This document shows positions 16,830-60,464 of a DNA stretch of 64,000 bases, piece by piece. Source of the stretch: Natrialba sp. SSL1 (lineage in GTDB: Archaea > Halobacteriota > Halobacteria > Halobacteriales > Natrialbaceae); NCBI RefSeq assembly GCF_001861355.1, contig NZ_MASN01000052.1:186001-250000 (forward strand), given 5' to 3'. Below the pieces are notes generated by a model. That model was not told the origin of the DNA. It made no database searches and saw nothing but the letters and a program-made list of their open reading frames with translations. Numbering within the stretch: the first letter of the stretch is position 1; each line of letters starts with the position of its first letter. The translations under genes and the position numbers were made by a program.

Positions 16830-17031
16830 ACAGCGGGCGGATTGCGGTGGATCGTCACGACACGACACGGTCCGCCCGCTTCGAAGCTCTTATACTCGGG
16901 AGTTGGATAGGTGAAACCGACTCGCTGGATCGCGGGCACCAGCGGGCACCTGTTCGGCACGCGACGCCGCCACAGGACGGGATGTGATCCGGCGCTCGGA
17001 TTGAACCAGGAAACGCCCGCGGTGACAAACA

Positions 17032-50583: not shown

Positions 50584-52020
50584 ATGAGTGATGCACAGCG
50601 ACCGAGCGACGACGGCGTATCGAGCGAGCAACCGAGCACTGGCGGTGTGGGCGGAGGCGACAGCGACAGCGGCGACGGCAACGACGAGTTCGAACCCGTC
50701 CAGGTCTTCCCCGAGGCCGAAGAGATGGACCTCCGGCCCGGTGCGGACAGCTGTTACAAGTGCTCGACCTGCGATACGAACTGCCCCGTCGCCGAGGTCG
50801 ACGACGAGTTCCCCGGGCCGAAGTTCCAGGGGCCGGAGCAGTGGCGGCTAAAGCGCCAGGACGACCACGACATCGACGACTCGGTGATGAAGTGTTCGAA
50901 CTGCATGCGCTGTGATAGTGCCTGTCCCTCGAGTGTCCCGCTCTCGCAGATGCACAACACGGCGCGGGCGGAGTACGTTGAGGAGAACATGAGCAAATTC
51001 TCGCGCGAGTACCTTCGCAACCGGGTGCTCGCGAACTACCGCCGCCTCGCGCCGCTGGCGTCGATGTTCCCGCGAACGGCGAACTTCGTGATGGGACGCT
51101 CGGTCACGAAGTGGCTCGGCGAGAAGACCCTGGGGATCACGAGCGAGCGCGACTTTCCCGAGTTCGCGACGGAGACGTTCCGCGAGTGGTGGACGGACAG
51201 GGGCGGGGCGAACGTCGAAAACGAGGATAAGCGCATCGCCTACTTCCACGGCTGTTATTCGAACTACAACACCCCCGAGGTCGCGAAGGCACTCGTGCAC
51301 GTCTACGAGCACTTCGGCTACGAGGTCATGGTCCCCGAACAGTCCTGTTCCGGCACGCCGATGTTCGCCAATGGCATGCTCGAGGACGCCCGCCGCGCGG
51401 CCGAGACGAACGTCCGCGAACTCGCCGCAGCCATCGAGGACGGCGCAGACGTTATCGCGTCGTGTAGCTCCTGCTCGATGTCGATTCGCCAGGAGTACCC
51501 CGAACTGTTCGACTTCGAGAATACCGAGGACGTCGCCGCGAATACCTGGGACGCCGTCGAGTACCTCCGCGTCCACGAGGATTTGATGGGTGCACTCGAG
51601 AACACCACCGTCGGCGACGAGTTCGACGACATGGCATATCACGCACCGTGTCATTCACGTAACCAGGGACTCGATGGACAGACGATCGAAGTGATGGACG
51701 CGATCGACGGCATCGACGCCCACGACGTGGGGGACTCCTGTTCGGGCATCTCGGGCACCTACGGGTGGAAAGAAGAGAACTACGAGACGTCGATGAAGAT
51801 CGGCGAGGAGATGTTCGAGCACATGGACGCAGCCGAGGCCGAGACCGGCCTGACGGAGTGTCCGACCTGTTCGATGCAGATGGAACACGGCACCGGCTAC
51901 GAGATCAAGCACACGCTCGAGGTACTCGAGGCGGCCCTCGTCGGAGACAGGGACGGAAGCGGGAGTGGCTCGCACGCAAGCGCAGGTGCGGGTACCGAGA
52001 CAGCGACGGAGTCGAACTGA
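50584..52020 (+). CDS. gpdC: Glycerol-3-phosphate dehydrogenase subunit C (iron-sulfur, membrane-associating)
   Basis: Electron-transfer subunit that links the dehydrogenase to the quinone pool. Two [4Fe-4S] ferredoxin motifs CYKCSTCDTNCPVAEV and CSNCMRCDSACPSSVP, then two CCG domains: HGCYSNYNTPEVAKALVHVYEHFGYEV with CSGTPMFANGM, and YHAPCHSRNQGLDGQ with CSGISGTYGW and CPTCSMQME. Both ends (residues 1-35 and 455-478) are low-complexity Gly/Ser/Asp. Its TGA stop overlaps the ATG of the next gene (ATGA). Confidence 0.93.
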   Translation: MSDAQRPSDDGVSSEQPSTGGVGGGDSDSGDGNDEFEPVQVFPEAEEMDLRPGADSCYKCSTCDTNCPVAEVDDEFPGPKFQGPEQWRLKRQDDHDIDDSVMKCSNCMRCDSACPSSVPLSQMHNTARAEYVEENMSKFSREYLRNRVLANYRRLAPLASMFPRTANFVMGRSVTKWLGEKTLGITSERDFPEFATETFREWWTDRGGANVENEDKRIAYFHGCYSNYNTPEVAKALVHVYEHFGYEVMVPEQSCSGTPMFANGMLEDARRAAETNVRELAAAIEDGADVIASCSSCSMSIRQEYPELFDFENTEDVAANTWDAVEYLRVHEDLMGALENTTVGDEFDDMAYHAPCHSRNQGLDGQTIEVMDAIDGIDAHDVGDSCSGISGTYGWKEENYETSMKIGEEMFEHMDAAEAETGLTECPTCSMQMEHGTGYEIKHTLEVLEAALVGDRDGSGSGSHASAGAGTETATESN

Positions 52021-53543
52021 TGAACCTTCAGGAGCGCATCGCACGACGACGATCGGCACACCAGGGGCGAACGGTGGTGGTCGACCGCGACCATCTGAGT
52101 CCAGTCGTCCACCGCCCGGAGCCGATCGGCCGCGGCCCCGTTCTGGAGCAGTTGCTGGACGAACTCGAGCCCGTCTTCGACGGCGAGTTGCCGGAGCCGG
52201 TCGCCGTTGTCGGCCCGCCGGGTTCGGGGACATCCGCGATCGTTACTGCGCTGTTCGATGCGCTCAACGACCGACTCGGAGAATCGAGCCGATCGATTGC
52301 AACGACGACGCGCGCGGGCAGCACCGGCCCGGTGACCTGGTTCGTCTACGTCGACGGTCGCCGCGTCGAGAGCGCCTTTGCGTTCTACCAATCCGTTCTC
52401 TCCGTGATTTCGGCGGAGCCGGTGCCCGAGAGCGGAATTGGAACGGATGACCTCCGAGAGCGACTGACCGCGCGCCTCGCGCGCCACGACCGTCGGGCTG
52501 TCGTCGCCATCGACCACCACGACGAACCCGAAACGCTTCGGTACGAACGGGCCAGAGAGCTCCTCGAACCGGTCAGTGACAGTGTCGCGACGATAGCGGT
52601 CGGCCAGTCGACACCCGAGAAGTGGGTGCCCGCTGACGGCGAGGCTGACGGCGATGTAGACGGCAATGCGGACCGGGATGAAGACGGAACCGGAATCAAG
52701 GCCGGCAAGAGCCGGACAGCGACCGGAGACGAGAGCACACAGCCAGCGCGCTCGGTCGTGACTGTGCCGGCCTACCGCCATCACGAACTCGTCGATGTCA
52801 TCACCGACCGCGCCTCGACCGGCCTCGCCGCGGGTGTCCTCGACCACGAGTCGGTGCGCGAACTCGCCATCTGGGCCGACGGCAACGCCCACGACGCGCT
52901 CGCCGCACTGTTCGGAGCGGCCTGCCATGCCACCGAGACCGACGCAACACGTATCGATGCCTCCCACCTCGAGGCGGCGCGGAGCGCGGTCCCTGCGGAC
53001 GGCGTCCACATCGACCGCGCGCTTGCACTCTCCGAGACGCGCCAGCAAGTGCTCGTCCATCTCGTCGATGTCGACACCGACGGCCGTCCGATCCGAGAGG
53101 TCGCGAGTGCCATTGCCGAGCGCTCGACGCTCACCAACGGCACGGTCAAGCGGTTCCTCTACGAGCTCGCAGATCGGGGCGTCATCGAACGCGTTCCGCT
53201 CCCGACGAGTGGCAGCGGTCGCCGTCCGAGCACAGTCGAACCTCGCTTCCCGACGCTCGTCTTTGGAGCACTCACGTCAGCAACGGCGGAGACAGCGACC
53301 AGCATGGATACGGAAGAGGACTCAGACACAGATCTGGATGCGGTACCGGACACGAATACAGAGACAGAGACGAATACGAACACAGAAACGGATACAAGCA
53401 CCGACACGGACACGGACACGGACACGGACGTAAATAGAGACGAAAACACAAAAGCAGATACGGACACAAGTACGGACACAGACACGGACACCGATAGAGA
53501 CGCAGACACAAACGCGAACACCAGCACGAACAGATCACCCTAA
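52020..53543 (+). CDS. ORC1/Cdc6-like AAA ATPase with degenerate Walker A
   Basis: Related to archaeal Orc1/Cdc6: an AAA fold in the first 270 residues and a C-terminal winged helix (RQQVLVHLVDVDTDGRPIREVASAIAERSTLTNGTVKRFLYELADRGVI, about 345-395). The P-loop reads GPPGSGTS, so the nucleotide-contacting Lys is replaced by Thr; the Walker B is AVVAIDHHDEPE. Nucleotide hydrolysis is therefore doubtful. Residues about 220-245 and the last 80 are Asp/Thr/Asn dipeptide repeats. Start overlaps the gpdC stop by one base. It is not the usual replication initiator context; a regulator or partner of the downstream CHAT protein is possible. Confidence 0.75.
   Translation: MNLQERIARRRSAHQGRTVVVDRDHLSPVVHRPEPIGRGPVLEQLLDELEPVFDGELPEPVAVVGPPGSGTSAIVTALFDALNDRLGESSRSIATTTRAGSTGPVTWFVYVDGRRVESAFAFYQSVLSVISAEPVPESGIGTDDLRERLTARLARHDRRAVVAIDHHDEPETLRYERARELLEPVSDSVATIAVGQSTPEKWVPADGEADGDVDGNADRDEDGTGIKAGKSRTATGDESTQPARSVVTVPAYRHHELVDVITDRASTGLAAGVLDHESVRELAIWADGNAHDALAALFGAACHATETDATRIDASHLEAARSAVPADGVHIDRALALSETRQQVLVHLVDVDTDGRPIREVASAIAERSTLTNGTVKRFLYELADRGVIERVPLPTSGSGRRPSTVEPRFPTLVFGALTSATAETATSMDTEEDSDTDLDAVPDTNTETETNTNTETDTSTDTDTDTDTDVNRDENTKADTDTSTDTDTDTDRDADTNANTSTNRSP
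53290..53540. repeat. (GACACN)n coding microsatellite in the ORC-like gene
   Basis: About 40 copies of a hexamer ACGGAC/ACAGAC encode an 80-residue Asp-Thr-Glu-Asn tail. Unit register is in phase with translation (six bases), so length changes by slippage would keep the frame. Confidence 0.8.
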
Positions 53544-53635: not shown

Positions 53636-55954
53636 ATGACGATTGAGTTCGCGGCAGTCACCGATCCGTCAGGGCTCGAGTTCCACGATTCGATCGAACA
53701 GCGGCATCTCCGCGTCGGCACACCGGAAACCGTCTCGCCCACCTCGGTCGATCCCCAGAACTTTCGATTCCCAGTCAACAAAACCTGCACAATAGCGACC
53801 GACGAAATCCGGTTCGATCAACCCTACTCCGTGACCATCCACGACGAAACGGGTCGAACCGAAGCGAACGTCGGCGTCGGCGAACGCACCACACTCGAGA
53901 ACCGCCCGCAGTTCGTCGGACTCAGCGGCCCGATCAAACTCTACTGTCGCATCGATACCGCAGGGACGGTCGACATCGGACTTACCGCCGTCCGAATCGA
54001 ACTCGAGTGCGAGACCACAGTTACGATCGGTGCGCGCTCGCTGCACGACCAGCCGGCGGGAACGATTACGACGCCGCCGGATATCGAATCGATGGCGGCA
54101 GCGCTCTCTGCGTTCCCCTCCGCGTTGAAGACCACGTCTCCGGAGCGGACGTGGCCAACGCTGCGCGGTCACCCACCGTTGATCGAACTCGGCGAAACGC
54201 TCGAAATCCCGAACGCGGTCAGGAAGTCGAATATCGGTCCCGAAACCGGAGCGAGAATACGGGCTGTGTCAGATACCGGCTCGCTGCCGGCCGACGAGAC
54301 AGCAGTTGCGACTGCAAACACACCAGCAGGAGACTCAGTGGTGGGACGAGGTACTGATACTGGCACTGGCACTGGTGCTGATGCTGGTACCGGCACCAGC
54401 ACTGACGCCGAAACCACCACCGAAACACCGGGCGAGGGAATCACGATAACCGTCCCAGAGCGCTACCTCGCGCTCTTTCAGGCCGCCCCGCTCGCGTTCT
54501 TCCTCGATGCCCAGATTCGGCCTGGAACCGAACCCGCGCTGCAGACGCCAGCGTTCGAGTACCCGCTCCCGAACGACGAGACGTTCGGTGACGAGATTGC
54601 GAACTTGCTCAAGCGCTTCTTCTTCCTCGACTGTCTCACCAGAACGGAGGGAATCTTCCAGTACGACCTCCTCGAGCGCTCCGAACTCGAAGACGAACTG
54701 CCGTTTGATCTCGGGACCACCTATGAGGAACCCCTCCCCGAACGGTTAGCGCGATATCTCGAGGTGCCGTTCGACCTCATCGAGACGCACGCACCTCGAT
54801 GGCCACTGACTGCGCACATCCCGCCCGAACCGGAGAGTATCGAGCTGTTGCCGTTCATCGTCAACGAACTGGGTATCGTCCGTCCCTCGCGCGGCAAGAC
54901 ACCGGCCGAACCACCGGCTGCGCCCGCAGCAGACGCCCGACTCGTTCGCTCGACGAGCGAGGCACCACCCGACACAATCGATCGATCACCCGCTCCATCA
55001 CCGCCGCCCTCACCAGCCGATCCACCGGATGAATCCGCGTTCGTCATCCCCACCGTCACCGACGAGTCCGTCGAACACGCCTGGTTCGGCAACAACGTCC
55101 CCCAGAACGCCTCGAAGGCGACTATCGAGGCCTATCGAAATCAGCTGCATCGCGACACGCGAAACGAATCGATCGAAATTCTCCTCGTCTGCAACGACGT
55201 CCGCATGCTCGACGAGCACGATCTGCTCGATGAGACCTACGGGAATCGAGACGAACTCCCGTTCAAGATCGACTCCGAGTTCGGCGTCGACAGCAACCAA
55301 CTTGCAACACTCCTCACCGAAGGCGGGTACGATTTCGTCCACTACATCGGCCACGCAACCGAAGACGGGCTGCGCTGTCCCGACGGTGAGCTAGACATCC
55401 GGACACTCGAGTCGGTCGACGTGGGCGTCTTCTTCCTGAACGCCTGTCGCTCCTATCAACAGGGGCTCGCGATGATCCGCCGTGGCGCGTTCGGCGGCGT
55501 CAGCACGTACGGTGACGTTGCCAACGAAGATGCTGTCGAAGCGGGCGAGACGATGGCCCGATTGCTCAACCGGGGCTTCCCGCTTCGGGGGGCACTCGAG
55601 ATCGCTCGCCAGAATACGGCACTCGGGGAACAGTATCTGATCGTTGGTGACGGGTCTGCTGATATTGCGCAGTCGGATGGGGGTGCGCCTGCTGTTGTCA
55701 AACTCAACCGTTGCGAGGCAGGAGTGATGGATTTCGCTATCCAGTCGTATTCCACAAAGGAGTTCCAGTTAGGAACGGCAACTGCTTCGAACCTCCCGTA
55801 CGTCAAAGATCGGCACTTGAGTCCTGGATGTACGCCATTCTCCAGTGTTAATGAGAGTGAGTTGCACGAGTATCTCTCCTGGAATGAGTTACCGATGTTA
55901 ATCGAGGAGACGCTCTCGTGGAACGACGGGATTGGTCCGTTTAGCGGTGACTGA
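53636..55954 (+). CDS. CHAT-domain protein (caspase-like cysteine protease)
   Basis: A 772-residue multidomain protein. An N-terminal beta-rich region (about 1-160), a Gly/Thr linker (about 225-265), a second domain (270-410, ITVPERYLALFQAAPLAFFLDAQIRP onward), a Pro-rich linker (420-475) and a C-terminal CHAT domain (about 500-690). The catalytic dyad is visible: His573 in FVHYIGHATEDGL and Cys604 in VFFLNACRSYQQG, spaced as in caspase/gasdermin-activating CHAT proteases. No membrane segment. Substrate unknown; the convergent gene at 56033 for a 44-residue hydrophobic mini-protein is an obvious candidate partner. CHAT proteases often act in defence or cell death, which is an analogy only. 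Confidence 0.85.
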   Translation: MTIEFAAVTDPSGLEFHDSIEQRHLRVGTPETVSPTSVDPQNFRFPVNKTCTIATDEIRFDQPYSVTIHDETGRTEANVGVGERTTLENRPQFVGLSGPIKLYCRIDTAGTVDIGLTAVRIELECETTVTIGARSLHDQPAGTITTPPDIESMAAALSAFPSALKTTSPERTWPTLRGHPPLIELGETLEIPNAVRKSNIGPETGARIRAVSDTGSLPADETAVATANTPAGDSVVGRGTDTGTGTGADAGTGTSTDAETTTETPGEGITITVPERYLALFQAAPLAFFLDAQIRPGTEPALQTPAFEYPLPNDETFGDEIANLLKRFFFLDCLTRTEGIFQYDLLERSELEDELPFDLGTTYEEPLPERLARYLEVPFDLIETHAPRWPLTAHIPPEPESIELLPFIVNELGIVRPSRGKTPAEPPAAPAADARLVRSTSEAPPDTIDRSPAPSPPPSPADPPDESAFVIPTVTDESVEHAWFGNNVPQNASKATIEAYRNQLHRDTRNESIEILLVCNDVRMLDEHDLLDETYGNRDELPFKIDSEFGVDSNQLATLLTEGGYDFVHYIGHATEDGLRCPDGELDIRTLESVDVGVFFLNACRSYQQGLAMIRRGAFGGVSTYGDVANEDAVEAGETMARLLNRGFPLRGALEIARQNTALGEQYLIVGDGSADIAQSDGGAPAVVKLNRCEAGVMDFAIQSYSTKEFQLGTATASNLPYVKDRHLSPGCTPFSSVNESELHEYLSWNELPMLIEETLSWNDGIGPFSGD

Positions 55955-56032: not shown

Positions 56033-56167
56033 TTACGGACCAACCTGCGAGTTGGTGCCTGCAACAACCGTCCCTGCCTGGCTGAGCAGGATGCAGAGCG
56101 TGAACAGTGCGCCGATCATTCGTGGGTGCTGGGCAAGGTAATCCTTCATGCTGTCAGTTACGGACAT
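56033..56167 (-). CDS. 44-residue hydrophobic mini-protein beside CHAT gene
   Basis: Small gene for MSVTDSMKDYLAQHPRMIGA, then a hydrophobic segment LFTLCILLSQAGTVVAG, and NSQVGP. It has an AGGAGT ribosome-binding site (56171-56176) four bases before the ATG and a TAAATATA box at 56197. Start, hydrophobic core and Gly/Pro ending follow a short haloarchaeal family (DUF7503-like, from memory) found near CHAT genes. The AxAG end of the helix resembles a signal-peptidase site, which would release a tiny peptide. It may be a CHAT substrate or sensor; unproved. Confidence 0.7.
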   Translation of the reverse strand: MSVTDSMKDYLAQHPRMIGALFTLCILLSQAGTVVAGTNSQVGP

Positions 56168-56170
56168 TAC

Positions 56171-56204
56171 ACTCCTATGGTTACCACCAATGGAAATAAA
56201 TATA
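56171..56204 (-). promoter_or_regulatory. Promoter and Shine-Dalgarno of the mini-protein gene
   Basis: On the minus strand TATATTTA (56197-56204) is followed by AGGAGT (56171-56176) just before the ATG. A canonical SD is uncommon among the leaderless genes of this window. Confidence 0.55.
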
Positions 56205-56447
56205 TCTTATACTTTCATATGCAATGTTACAGAAATAAGTGACACGGTGCTGAACAGAGCATGTCAAACGATCCCGTGACTAGAACGCAGGTAAGTAAGG
56301 GCACACACGAGAGAAATTGGTCTGGGTGGCGCTGAGACAACAGAAATGCGGTGTCAGTGAGAATAGGGAACCGAACTCCCTAGAACAGCATCCGAAAAAT
56401 TCGATCGGTCAGCGAACGCAACGGGCAGCTATGTGAGGGGAGACTGT
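56205..56447. other. Intergenic region, no gene seen
   Basis: AT-richer spacer between the mini-protein promoter and the end of aglB. Only short open frames with no coding bias. Nothing recognised. Confidence 0.5.
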
Positions 56448-59342
56448 TTAGATGTCATCCGTCTCATCGTCTGCTGCTTCCTCGTCTGCGACGGTGTCAT
56501 CGCCGCCCTCCTCATCGTCGTCAGCTGTCTCGTCTTCATCGTCGTCCGCCGGCTCCTCGTCCTCAGTCTCGACCTCCTCGAGTTCGACGTCGAGCGTTTC
56601 ACCGTCGATGACTGCAGATTCCGAAACTTCCTGCGCTCCCTGGTACACGGTGAATGTCTCGCCGTCGGACATCGTGAACGAGAGTTCGTACTCGTCGTCA
56701 AGCGCTTCGACGGCACTGTTCGTGTAGCCGTCTTCGACGCCGAGTTCGTCGTCCGTCGCGTACGGGACCGTCAGCTCGAACGCACCGTTCTCGTCGACTT
56801 CACCCTGCTGGGTGTAGTTGAACGTGGTTCCGGTGTTGGTCTCGATCTCGAGCGTTGCAGTGACGATGTCGCCTGCAGAGACGTTCTCGTCATCAACGGT
56901 TCCGCTAAGGGTTGCACCTTCGACGCGCTCGTAGGTCTTGACGGAGGCGGTCTCACGCTGTCCGATCTCTTCGTACTCGAGGTTTGGATGCTGCTGGATC
57001 TGCTGCAGTTCGAGAAGCGTGTGCTGGCTCGATAGGTCCTGGTTGAGGCGGACTTGCGGTGTTCCGTCCTCCGCCGTTAGCACCTGATCGGTGTCGGAGT
57101 TGATGATCGCGTAACTCATGAACTGCGTCGCGTGCTCCTCGTTTTCGTGGACGAGGCGGTAGTTCTCCATTCCGACCGCGTTGTTGAAGTACAGCGACGA
57201 GAGGACCGTATCGTCGTACGGAACGTCGTTGAACATCTCCGCGACCTCGTCACGGTCGATCTGTTCGGTTCCGTCGTAGTCTTCCGGCGTAACGTAGTGG
57301 CTATGATCGGGTTCGGACCAGGTCGTGATGGCGGAGAACTTTCCGCTCGCCATTGCGTCGTCAATCATCACGTACCGGATCTCCTCGTCAGTCTGGTCGG
57401 CATCCGCGATGAGCTGCTCGAGTTCCTCGTCCGAGTGGTCATCGACCGACTCACCCGTCGCAATCGCATCGAGAATTAGCTCTGCGCGCTCCTCAGATTC
57501 AGCCGTTAAGAACGCCGATGAGGAGCGAGCATTCTGCTGGAACGGGTTCGAATGCGGGATCCGCTCTGACTGTGTCGTAATCAGATGGCCATAGTCCCAC
57601 CACGACATGACGCCGTAGCTTCCAACCGGATAATCAAAGTTCCCGTCCTCCGGATAGTCATAGCTGCCGAAGTAGTCGAGTTCACTGGCGTTGTCAGCGC
57701 CGCCCCAGTTACCTGGTTCGGGCGTGTTTTCTGCCAGCCAGTGGTTCGACTCTTCCCAGGTCGTCGCGTCGTCGTGTGGCTGTGCGTAGCTTCCCTGCTC
57801 CCACGCAGTGTTTCCTGCCTGTGCGATCGGCGGGAGCAACGGGGCAAACAGCAGCAGTGCGACCATGAACAGGACGATAACCTGGTATGTCTCGATCTGT
57901 CGGATCGAATTGACGCCGCTTCGGATATCGAAGTCGAACAGACGGACGACGTCAGCCACGAAGACGGCGTTCATGGCTACGACCGCGAGGACGAGATAGT
58001 AGGAGAATCGGATCTGGGTCGCTGCCATACTCATCAGGAACAACGACCAGACGATGATGAGAGTGTATTCGGTGCGGTACTCACGGCCGAGGAACGGCCG
58101 TGCGATCAGCAGGCCGAGACCGGCGAGCATCGTGTAGAACGCTGCGCCGAACTCGTCGAACATGAAGCTGGTGAAGTCACTAGGTGGTTGTGCTTCCTGG
58201 ATGGTGAGGTCCGTGGCAGTCTCACCGAACGGCAGCACGCGGCGGGTCGCGTTGTCCACGATCGTACTGAACAAGTCAGGAAGAACGACCCACATCAGAC
58301 CGAACGTGACAGCGAGCAAGCCACCGATCGCTGCGGGATAGAATCGTCGGTCGACATCGAATCCGTTCCACTGGCGCGCGAACCAGGCCATGAACACACA
58401 GCCACCAGCAACGAGTGCGGCGCTTAGCGGCTGGAGGTAGCTAAAGCTCGTCACACTCGTTCCGGGGTCTTCGATCAGCAATGCCGTCACGAGCGCGGTA
58501 ATGCCGAGACTGGTCGCACCAACGAATGCGACGTGGTCCGGCGAAATGTTTCGGACGTAGTCGAGACAGAGCTGGACGGTGAAGAAGATCGCGAGGATCC
58601 CGATCAGGACGACCCCTGGTGGCCAAACCCAGATGTAGAGCGACAGCGCGAGACCGGCAAGAGCGCTGTATATCGTCGGTTCACGAAGCGTCTCCCAGTC
58701 CTTGTCGACGAGGAGTTCGTAGATCGGTTGTTCGCGTTCTGCAGCGCGCAGCGCCACCATCAGCGCCAGGATGGCAATCGCCATAAACAGCACTTCGGCG
58801 ACGTGGTGCTGGAGTTGTCCGACCGTCGTTCGCGTGAGGAACTGTCCCGGGACGAGTGCGAGGAGCAGAATCGAAACGATTCCGCCGAGCGTTCCGCCGA
58901 GTCGGCGGCCGATGTAGAACACCGGAATCGCAACGAGGGCAGCCATCACGGGAACAGCGATCAGCGAGACCGTGTACAGTGTCTCCGTCGATGGATCGCC
59001 GAGGCCGACGATCATCGCGACGGTGACGATGAGCTGGTCGAACAGCGTTCCGAACTGGCCGACATACCGCCCAGTCGGGAACCCGGTCCAAATATCGTAC
59101 GGCATCGTGTACGGGTAGTTCTCTGCCGTCCACTCGATCGTTCGCCAGTGATACCACGAGTCGACTGCAGCGAGGCTCGGCGTTCCGTCCTCGGTGGTAA
59201 ACGCACTGTAAGACTGCAGCCGAACCCAGAGCATGAACAGTATCACAGCCCCGATTACGGGGATATGATACCAGTCGTCCCACGTCTCGAGAATGGAGGT
59301 GTTCGTCTCCTCCTCTTCGACGTGTTCAGTGTTGGTACTCAT
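56448..59342 (-). CDS. aglB: Oligosaccharyltransferase AglB
   Basis: Membrane enzyme that transfers the lipid-linked glycan to Asn of S-layer proteins, archaellins and other secreted proteins. About 13 hydrophobic segments lie in the first 510 residues. The catalytic signature WWDYG is at about residue 580, and an early acidic motif (AAVDSWYHWRT) supplies the metal site. The extracellular C-terminal domain runs to about 900, followed by an acidic tail (EEPADDDEDETADDDEEGGDD). Divergent from the AglG-like gene. Length (964 residues) fits euryarchaeal AglB. Confidence 0.96.
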   Translation of the reverse strand: MSTNTEHVEEEETNTSILETWDDWYHIPVIGAVILFMLWVRLQSYSAFTTEDGTPSLAAVDSWYHWRTIEWTAENYPYTMPYDIWTGFPTGRYVGQFGTLFDQLIVTVAMIVGLGDPSTETLYTVSLIAVPVMAALVAIPVFYIGRRLGGTLGGIVSILLLALVPGQFLTRTTVGQLQHHVAEVLFMAIAILALMVALRAAEREQPIYELLVDKDWETLREPTIYSALAGLALSLYIWVWPPGVVLIGILAIFFTVQLCLDYVRNISPDHVAFVGATSLGITALVTALLIEDPGTSVTSFSYLQPLSAALVAGGCVFMAWFARQWNGFDVDRRFYPAAIGGLLAVTFGLMWVVLPDLFSTIVDNATRRVLPFGETATDLTIQEAQPPSDFTSFMFDEFGAAFYTMLAGLGLLIARPFLGREYRTEYTLIIVWSLFLMSMAATQIRFSYYLVLAVVAMNAVFVADVVRLFDFDIRSGVNSIRQIETYQVIVLFMVALLLFAPLLPPIAQAGNTAWEQGSYAQPHDDATTWEESNHWLAENTPEPGNWGGADNASELDYFGSYDYPEDGNFDYPVGSYGVMSWWDYGHLITTQSERIPHSNPFQQNARSSSAFLTAESEERAELILDAIATGESVDDHSDEELEQLIADADQTDEEIRYVMIDDAMASGKFSAITTWSEPDHSHYVTPEDYDGTEQIDRDEVAEMFNDVPYDDTVLSSLYFNNAVGMENYRLVHENEEHATQFMSYAIINSDTDQVLTAEDGTPQVRLNQDLSSQHTLLELQQIQQHPNLEYEEIGQRETASVKTYERVEGATLSGTVDDENVSAGDIVTATLEIETNTGTTFNYTQQGEVDENGAFELTVPYATDDELGVEDGYTNSAVEALDDEYELSFTMSDGETFTVYQGAQEVSESAVIDGETLDVELEEVETEDEEPADDDEDETADDDEEGGDDTVADEEAADDETDDI

Positions 59343-59378
59343 TAGGTTGCACCAGACCCAAGCCGGGAATAAGTCTTG

Positions 59379-59386
59379 TTATATAC
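59379..59386 (-). promoter_or_regulatory. TATA box of aglB
   Basis: TTATATAC, reading GTATATAA on the minus strand, 40 bases before the aglB ATG at 59342; predicts a leader of about 14 bases. Confidence 0.5.
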
Positions 59387-59522
59387 ACGTCGTGTTTTGA
59401 TGACCGGTCGCACAGGGAGACTACTGTTGATGGGGATGAGTAGACCGCCATTCTGGAACGGACTGCATCGGACTCCATCGAAGGAAAAGGCTTATTCGCC
59501 ACTCACAGCAATGCTGCGGACG

Positions 59523-60464
59523 ATGAAGGTCTCCGTCGTCATCTGCACGTACGCGATGGAACGCTACGACGTCTTCTCCGAGTGCGTCGATAGCGTTCTC
59601 GAACAAACCTACGACCCGCTCGAGGTCGTCATCGTTGTAGACGGCAACGAGACTGTCTTCGAGCGCGTTACGGACGACTATGGAGACCTCGACGGTGTCG
59701 AATGCTACTGCAACGACGACAATCAGGGCATCTCCTACAGTCGAACCCGTGGTGCCAAACTTGCAACCGGTGATGTCGTCGCGTTCATCGACGACGACGC
59801 CGTCGCCGAACCCGACTGGATCGACGAACTCGCGCGGGTCTACGACGAAACCGACGCCATCGCCGTCGGCGGACACGCCAAACCCGACTGGGTGACCGAC
59901 AAACCCGATTTCTTCCCCGAGGAGTTCTACTGGCTCGTCGGCTGTGACGAACGCGGAATGGGCGAGCACATGGAGGAACTTCGGAACACGTACGGCTCCA
60001 ACATTTCTTTCCGGCGAAACGTCTTTCTGAACGTCGGCGGCTACGACGAGAACACCGGCCGGAAGGGCGACCGACACATCCAGGCCCACGAAGCGCCGGT
60101 CTGCATCCGGATGGCGAACAAGTACGGGAAGGGCGTCATCTACAACACTGACGCCGTCGTAAACCACAAGCTGTTCGACTATCGCGGGGAGTTCCGATGG
60201 CTGGTCTTTCGCTCGTTCTGGCAGGGCTACTCGAAGCGAATTATGGACTTGCTCCTACCCGAAGCCGCGGGAGACAAGAACGACTATCTGAAACAGCTCA
60301 TGCTCGAGTTCGTTCCTTCCAGACTGCGAGACCTAATTCGGAATCCATCGAGCCCGAAGGCGAAACAACTCGTCACGATTTTCATCTTTACCGCGGCAGT
60401 CGGCTTCGGCTATCTGTACGGACTTATCCAATCGGATGACAAACTCGTCGGTGCGGCTACGTAG
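59523..60464 (+). CDS. aglG: Family 2 glycosyltransferase, AglG-like
   Basis: Probable glucosyl-dolichyl-phosphate glucuronosyltransferase-like enzyme extending the S-layer glycan precursor. GT-A fold: VSVVICTYAMERYDVFSECVDSVLEQTYDPLEVVIVVDG, NDDNQGISYSRTRG, and the metal motif FIDDDAV. The C-terminus has an amphipathic/hydrophobic helix VTIFIFTAAVGFGYLYGLI, for membrane association. It neighbours aglB divergently, as aglG does in Haloferax; sugar identity is inferred. A TTATTC box at about 59492 supports the ATG at 59523 rather than earlier in-frame starts. Confidence 0.85.
   Translation: MKVSVVICTYAMERYDVFSECVDSVLEQTYDPLEVVIVVDGNETVFERVTDDYGDLDGVECYCNDDNQGISYSRTRGAKLATGDVVAFIDDDAVAEPDWIDELARVYDETDAIAVGGHAKPDWVTDKPDFFPEEFYWLVGCDERGMGEHMEELRNTYGSNISFRRNVFLNVGGYDENTGRKGDRHIQAHEAPVCIRMANKYGKGVIYNTDAVVNHKLFDYRGEFRWLVFRSFWQGYSKRIMDLLLPEAAGDKNDYLKQLMLEFVPSRLRDLIRNPSSPKAKQLVTIFIFTAAVGFGYLYGLIQSDDKLVGAAT

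Follow-up and report, generated by a model that had tools for sequence, protein, structure and literature searches.

Within a 64,000-nucleotide stretch of the Natrialba sp. SSL1 genome (hereafter the window), a 44-codon open reading frame runs towards the end of a gene for a far larger, caspase-like protein. This arrangement raises the question of whether so short a frame is a gene at all and, if it is, what its product does beside such a neighbour. The frame has an ATG start and a TAA stop and translates as MSVTDSMKDYLAQHPRMIGALFTLCILLSQAGTVVAGTNSQVGP:

56033..56167, minus strand: DUF7503 micropeptide gene, 44 amino acids plus stop, recognised from the open reading frame, a Pfam match and dN/dS within the genus.

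A Pfam search placed the micropeptide in PF24335 (DUF7503; E 7.2e-22), its 77.1 bits exceeding the gathering cut-off of 27 across the whole model (profile positions 1-42 of 42), and NCBIfam held no model matching it. Homologues are plentiful. Of 292 haloarchaeal genomes sampled, 250 have DUF7503, as do 65 of 77 genera, at one to six copies per genome; among 14 well-known control genomes, only Haloferax volcanii gave a match. The source genome carries a single copy, and orthologues are present in 7/7 genomes of the genus. Pairwise dN/dS among these seven copies is 0.03-0.13, well under 1, with changes mostly at third codon positions, and comparison with the closest relative revealed 0, 1 and 7 substitutions at codon positions 1, 2 and 3. 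On this comparative evidence the 44-codon ORF is a genuine gene, far beyond chance, as the first-pass annotation had proposed. Its description there as overlooked is correct in part: two plasmid records list no micropeptide coding sequence, the gene table being incomplete, but a Pfam family already exists. The Pfam entry gives no function and contains neither the protease partnership nor the tail arrays described below, and among the papers searched none dealt with DUF7503 or with haloarchaeal CHAT domains.

Strong expression signals had also been claimed for the gene, and two candidates lie upstream of its start codon:

56195..56200, minus strand: genus-conserved TTTATT resembling a TATA box, about 33 nt ahead of the start codon.
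56171..56176, minus strand: AGGAGT, proposed as a Shine-Dalgarno (SD) sequence, present in the window and unconserved across the family.

The TATA box is a genuine conserved feature: an AT-rich block and a TTTAWW-like element recur some 32-35 nt ahead of the start codon. The SD did not hold up as a strong signal: even sister species have AGGAAT or TTGGAAT at the AGGAGT site, and we rejected a shared SD signal for DUF7503 because its frequency is no higher than chance (SD-like 4-mers upstream of 104 copies, 12 observed versus 12.3 expected by shuffling). Separately, the promoter region (window positions 56168-56230 and homologous upstream regions) contains a ATTACCATTGG-N-CCATTGG-like element that recurs close to where transcription presumably starts; it is also found in some distant genera and is possibly an operator.

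The gene that meets the micropeptide gene end to end encodes a putative protease:

53636..55954, plus strand: CHAT caspase/separase-like protease, 772 amino acids, convergent with the micropeptide gene, 78 nt between the stop codons.
55352..55354, plus strand: His573 (HYIGH), a predicted catalytic residue; invariant among 57 sequences.
55445..55447, plus strand: Cys604 (NAC), a predicted catalytic residue; invariant among 57 sequences.

The Pfam CHAT profile matched 3 of 57 family members at E<=0.01 (best 3.6e-4) and gave no match to the window protein; PADLOC returned no match for the CHAT family, and our PDB sequence-profile search and the phage records searched likewise gave none. In Foldseek, the predicted model (pLDDT 82) resembled SAVED-CHAT (E 8e-7, probability 1.0) and separase (E 8e-6), and VIA-align yielded Z-scores of 16-20 over 168-260 residues to gingipain, separase and SAVED-CHAT. 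The protein also has the catalytic His and Cys of a clan CD cysteine protease (H573 and C604), and on the modelled fold the neighbour is a predicted caspase/separase-fold (clan CD) cysteine protease. We detected no obvious export signal in it.

The link between the micropeptide and a CHAT system, suggested at first for this locus, extends across the class. In 59 of 61 class-wide loci the next gene downstream, on the other strand, belongs to the same family of ~700-residue proteins, and 42 of 43 further DUF7503 copies have the same CHAT neighbour; the loci were picked via search hits and are non-random, and weak matches and paralogues were added among the further copies against this bias. Paralogous copies within one genome each have a CHAT of their own. 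Viewed from the protease side, one high-scoring CHAT clade has 127 genes, and 122 of them face a convergent small ORF: DUF7503 in 110 cases and a different ORF with a Gly-Pro end in 12. As a control, a convergent GP-ending ORF was found beside only 1 of 211 genes in the same loci, and that one was the orphan of L167, a weak DUF7503-like copy adjoining an unrelated regulator-like ORF. Over 292 genomes, 247 contain both genes, 3 DUF7503 only (G153, G174 and G209), 9 CHAT only and 33 neither; all eight CHAT-only genomes inspected (all nine but G180) have a different GP-ending partner. L107, one of the two remaining of the 61 loci, was rejected as an exception when a convergent CHAT missed by the gene caller was found there, and L099 was rejected as an unpaired DUF7503, its CHAT (L187) being on the same contig, 32 kb away. 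Second CHAT copies in L104 and L163 have no adjacent partner, and in a lower-scoring CHAT clade only 5 of 18 genes have a GP-ending convergent ORF, the ORFs ending STYGGP or PYTGP. Comparison between genomes shows the pair to be conserved, and we conclude from it that the micropeptide is a dedicated partner of the CHAT protease.

Two further sets of loci deserve mention. The source genome has a second, divergent CHAT, a member of the lower-scoring clade (L112; G000:C35, about 104.5-111.5 kb), whose convergent small ORF ends ERVSTYGGP; the related ORFs of L117 and L126 have KRVSTYGGP at this end. In L136 the CHAT is split into two ORFs and the end of the micropeptide is replaced, so that both halves seem to decay together; an intact near-copy, in L135, lies beside it.

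Stop codons overlap or lie no more than 10 nt apart in most CHAT-partner pairs, and in 24 pairs of the high-scoring clade the overlap is exactly 4 nt. Convergent 3' ends this close could in principle pair as antisense RNA and silence a small hydrophobic peptide, as in a type I toxin-antitoxin system. However, the gaps reach hundreds of nucleotides in some loci, the partners in L099/L187 are 32 kb apart, and the soluble partners described below have no toxin-like helix. We consider this the least probable of the explanations weighed here.

The N-terminal, hydrophobic and Gly-Pro organisation that the first-pass annotation had read from the peptide is present and conserved:

56120..56167, minus strand: N-terminal segment, residues 1-16, a short helix ending HPR (alignment and AlphaFold).
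56060..56119, minus strand: hydrophobic helix, residues 17-36, ending [VA]xA in a signal-peptidase-like -3/-1 pattern (alignment and AlphaFold).
56036..56059, minus strand: C-terminal tail, residues 37-44, GTNSQVGP, retained when the hydrophobic part is lost and repeated in tandem in one lineage.

AlphaFold predicted, for the 44 residues (mean pLDDT 77), a helix at 3-13, a break before P15 and a long helix at 15-40, with the C-terminal end at lower confidence. Among 109 membrane-type copies, P15 is invariant (109/109), residue 16 is Arg or Lys in 104 and Gln or His in 5, and G19, F22, Q30, G32, [VA]34 and A36 are near-invariant. The copies usually end in G43-P44, the terminal GP being missing in 15/109. 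A positive residue ahead of the helix and a tail without charge point to an N-in/C-out topology for the membrane form.

The hydrophobic segment is not a constant feature of the partner. In one genus, 6/6 genomes carry in the CHAT-adjacent slot a soluble ORF composed of 4-13 copies of [TN]ADGN[SG][SG]GISGP, which ends at the same overlapping stop codon:

L109:3883-4449, and likewise in L169-L173: tandem 39-nt repeat gene, 4-13 tail-like units, no membrane helix.

All 13 units of the L109 array differ from one another in DNA yet encode a single peptide (pS 0.58, pN 0.000), a comparison showing that the repeat units evolve under purifying selection. Elsewhere, the slot holds a ~40-residue partner that lacks a strong hydrophobic helix and ends CTYSGP (L174, L175, L179 and L180), these soluble partners other than the arrays being short ORFs with unproven start codons; in L110 and L111 it is occupied by another hydrophobic peptide, ending PGP or SGP. 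Five of the alternative partners were compared with Pfam, and none matched a family there. In the CHAT tree, the arrays are sister to L066, L174/L175/L180 to L155/L176, and L179 to L177. Because the soluble partners nest separately inside membrane-type CHAT clades, the membrane part was lost at least three times while a GP tail was kept. Judged by this comparison, the membrane segment is dispensable and the short GP tail stays in the slot, and we conclude that the C-terminal tail is the functional part of the micropeptide, the tandem arrays serving as a natural experiment that singles out the functional peptide. The proposed role of the micropeptide as a membrane-resident sensor is less convincing as a general one, since several lineages pair CHAT with a soluble partner that keeps only a C-terminal tail.

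These losses also bear on the possibility that the micropeptide is a membrane-active effector that CHAT frees or activates, by analogy with protease-activated gasdermins. A small hydrophobic helix beside a caspase-like protease would suit such a role, and the helix begins at a conserved R/K16, a possible cleavage site. However, a gasdermin-like system would have a membrane-inserting part in every member, whereas the pair is kept after loss of the hydrophobic segment in at least three lineages, and position 16 is not basic in the five copies noted above. A membrane effector is thus highly unlikely.

Secretion, the other role first suggested, is kept possible by the signal-peptidase-like pattern ahead of the tail, with V or A at -3 in 105/109 and A or G at -1 in 108/109 membrane-type copies. 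Signal peptidase would cut after A36 and free an 8-residue GP peptide that CHAT processes or responds to; the conserved leader and variable tail would fit such a signalling peptide, and the tandem repeats look like multi-copy pheromone precursors. Yet no export signal is present in the repeat-array and f8 soluble partners, and it would be odd for an exported peptide to be paired with a cytosolic protease. Overall, we regard a secreted signal as rather unlikely.

Our main reading, to which we give a probability of about 0.5, is that DUF7503 is a dedicated CHAT partner whose tail matters, most likely as a substrate or activating ligand. The micropeptide would present a C-terminal tail of ~8-12 residues, usually ending Gly-Pro; in most lineages the hydrophobic segment would anchor this tail to the membrane, and in some the tail would sit on a soluble chain, in one case as an array of many copies. 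CHAT would bind this tail physically, the tail probably being what the protease recognises; cleavage of the tail by CHAT, the topology and the downstream output are steps that we infer. The tails diverge in step with CHAT (Mantel r 0.41-0.51, p 0.001), a covariation that partly reflects shared ancestry. Tail divergence tracks the C- and N-terminal domains of CHAT most and the catalytic core not independently, in partial correlations that carry no p-values, and for this reason recognition outside the active site is hinted at, in a suggestive way only. Against the main reading, an N-in/C-out topology would put the tail outside and CHAT has no obvious export signal, which suggests a conflict that the soluble partners escape and the common membrane form does not.

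The one-to-one pairing, with a micropeptide under its own promoter, would also suit an inhibitor or antitoxin, in which a pseudosubstrate tail blocks CHAT at the membrane for as long as the micropeptide has not been lost or taken away. Securin, the inhibitor of separase, is a pseudosubstrate, and the CHAT fold resembles separase; moreover, the multivalent arrays fit an inhibitor as well as a substrate. There is, however, no sign that CHAT alone is toxic: the second copies in L104 and L163 stand without an adjacent partner, and the L099/L187 genes are separated. We treat inhibition as a possibility, though an improbable one.

The wider neighbourhood adds a further gene upstream of CHAT in the genus:

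52020..53543, plus strand: Cdc6/Orc-like AAA ATPase gene, start codon inferred.

Membership of this ATPase in the system is uncertain because many other loci have DUF7504 in its place. The ATPase gene has a low-complexity (TDTDTN)n C-terminal extension (window 53200-53540). DUF7504 genes adjoin CHAT in L055-L063, L078, L083, L088, L090, L097, L100 and L104; one member bears a HalOD1 domain, and DUF7503 and DUF7504 are numbered consecutively in Pfam. HalX regulators lie near the micropeptide in other loci. Genes for the N-glycosylation enzymes AglB oligosaccharyltransferase (window 56448-59342) and an AglG-like transferase (59376-60464) lie beside the micropeptide here, but a functional link to AglB was rejected: it is a neighbour in 13/61 loci, only in this genus and some relatives, and the adjacency is therefore local synteny. 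The sole Rfam match in the window was an eL15-Euryarchaeota ribosomal protein leader (16949-17012).

Taken together, a Pfam family without known function becomes half of a near-universal haloarchaeal protease pair, and the main reading makes a precise and cheap prediction, namely that the protease needs the last eight to ten residues of the micropeptide. Among known systems, separase likewise has a protease fold of this clan and a small regulator dedicated to it, securin, but there is no homology between securin and the micropeptide, and securin is long and disordered and no membrane micropeptide. In Csx29 (TPR-CHAT) and Csx30 of type III-E CRISPR, a CHAT protease similarly has a dedicated partner recognised via C-terminal residues, and Csx30 was no longer cleaved once its 20 C-terminal residues had been truncated (PMC10028731). 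Our CHAT model aligned to the Csx29 fold with Z-scores of 12-14 in VIA-align. Csx30, however, is a 565-residue protein rather than a membrane micropeptide, the regulators differ too, and type III-E Cas7-11 is not among the neighbours checked here (DUF7504, AAA ATPase, HalX regulator and AglB). Finally, extracts of H. volcanii have strong caspase-like activity to which no gene was assigned (PMC3615174), and we offer the micropeptide-CHAT pair as a candidate for this activity. Haloferax species also carry the pair, with adjacent stop codons, which makes the proposal testable; H. volcanii itself is represented here by its DUF7503 control match only, and CHAT as the source of its activity is purely hypothetical. 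More broadly, a class-wide two-gene haloarchaeal signalling module, in which CHAT is combined with a micropeptide bearing its cognate tail in tethered, soluble or tandem form, might tentatively be considered as the source of the unassigned archaeal caspase-like activity, although we think this unlikely.
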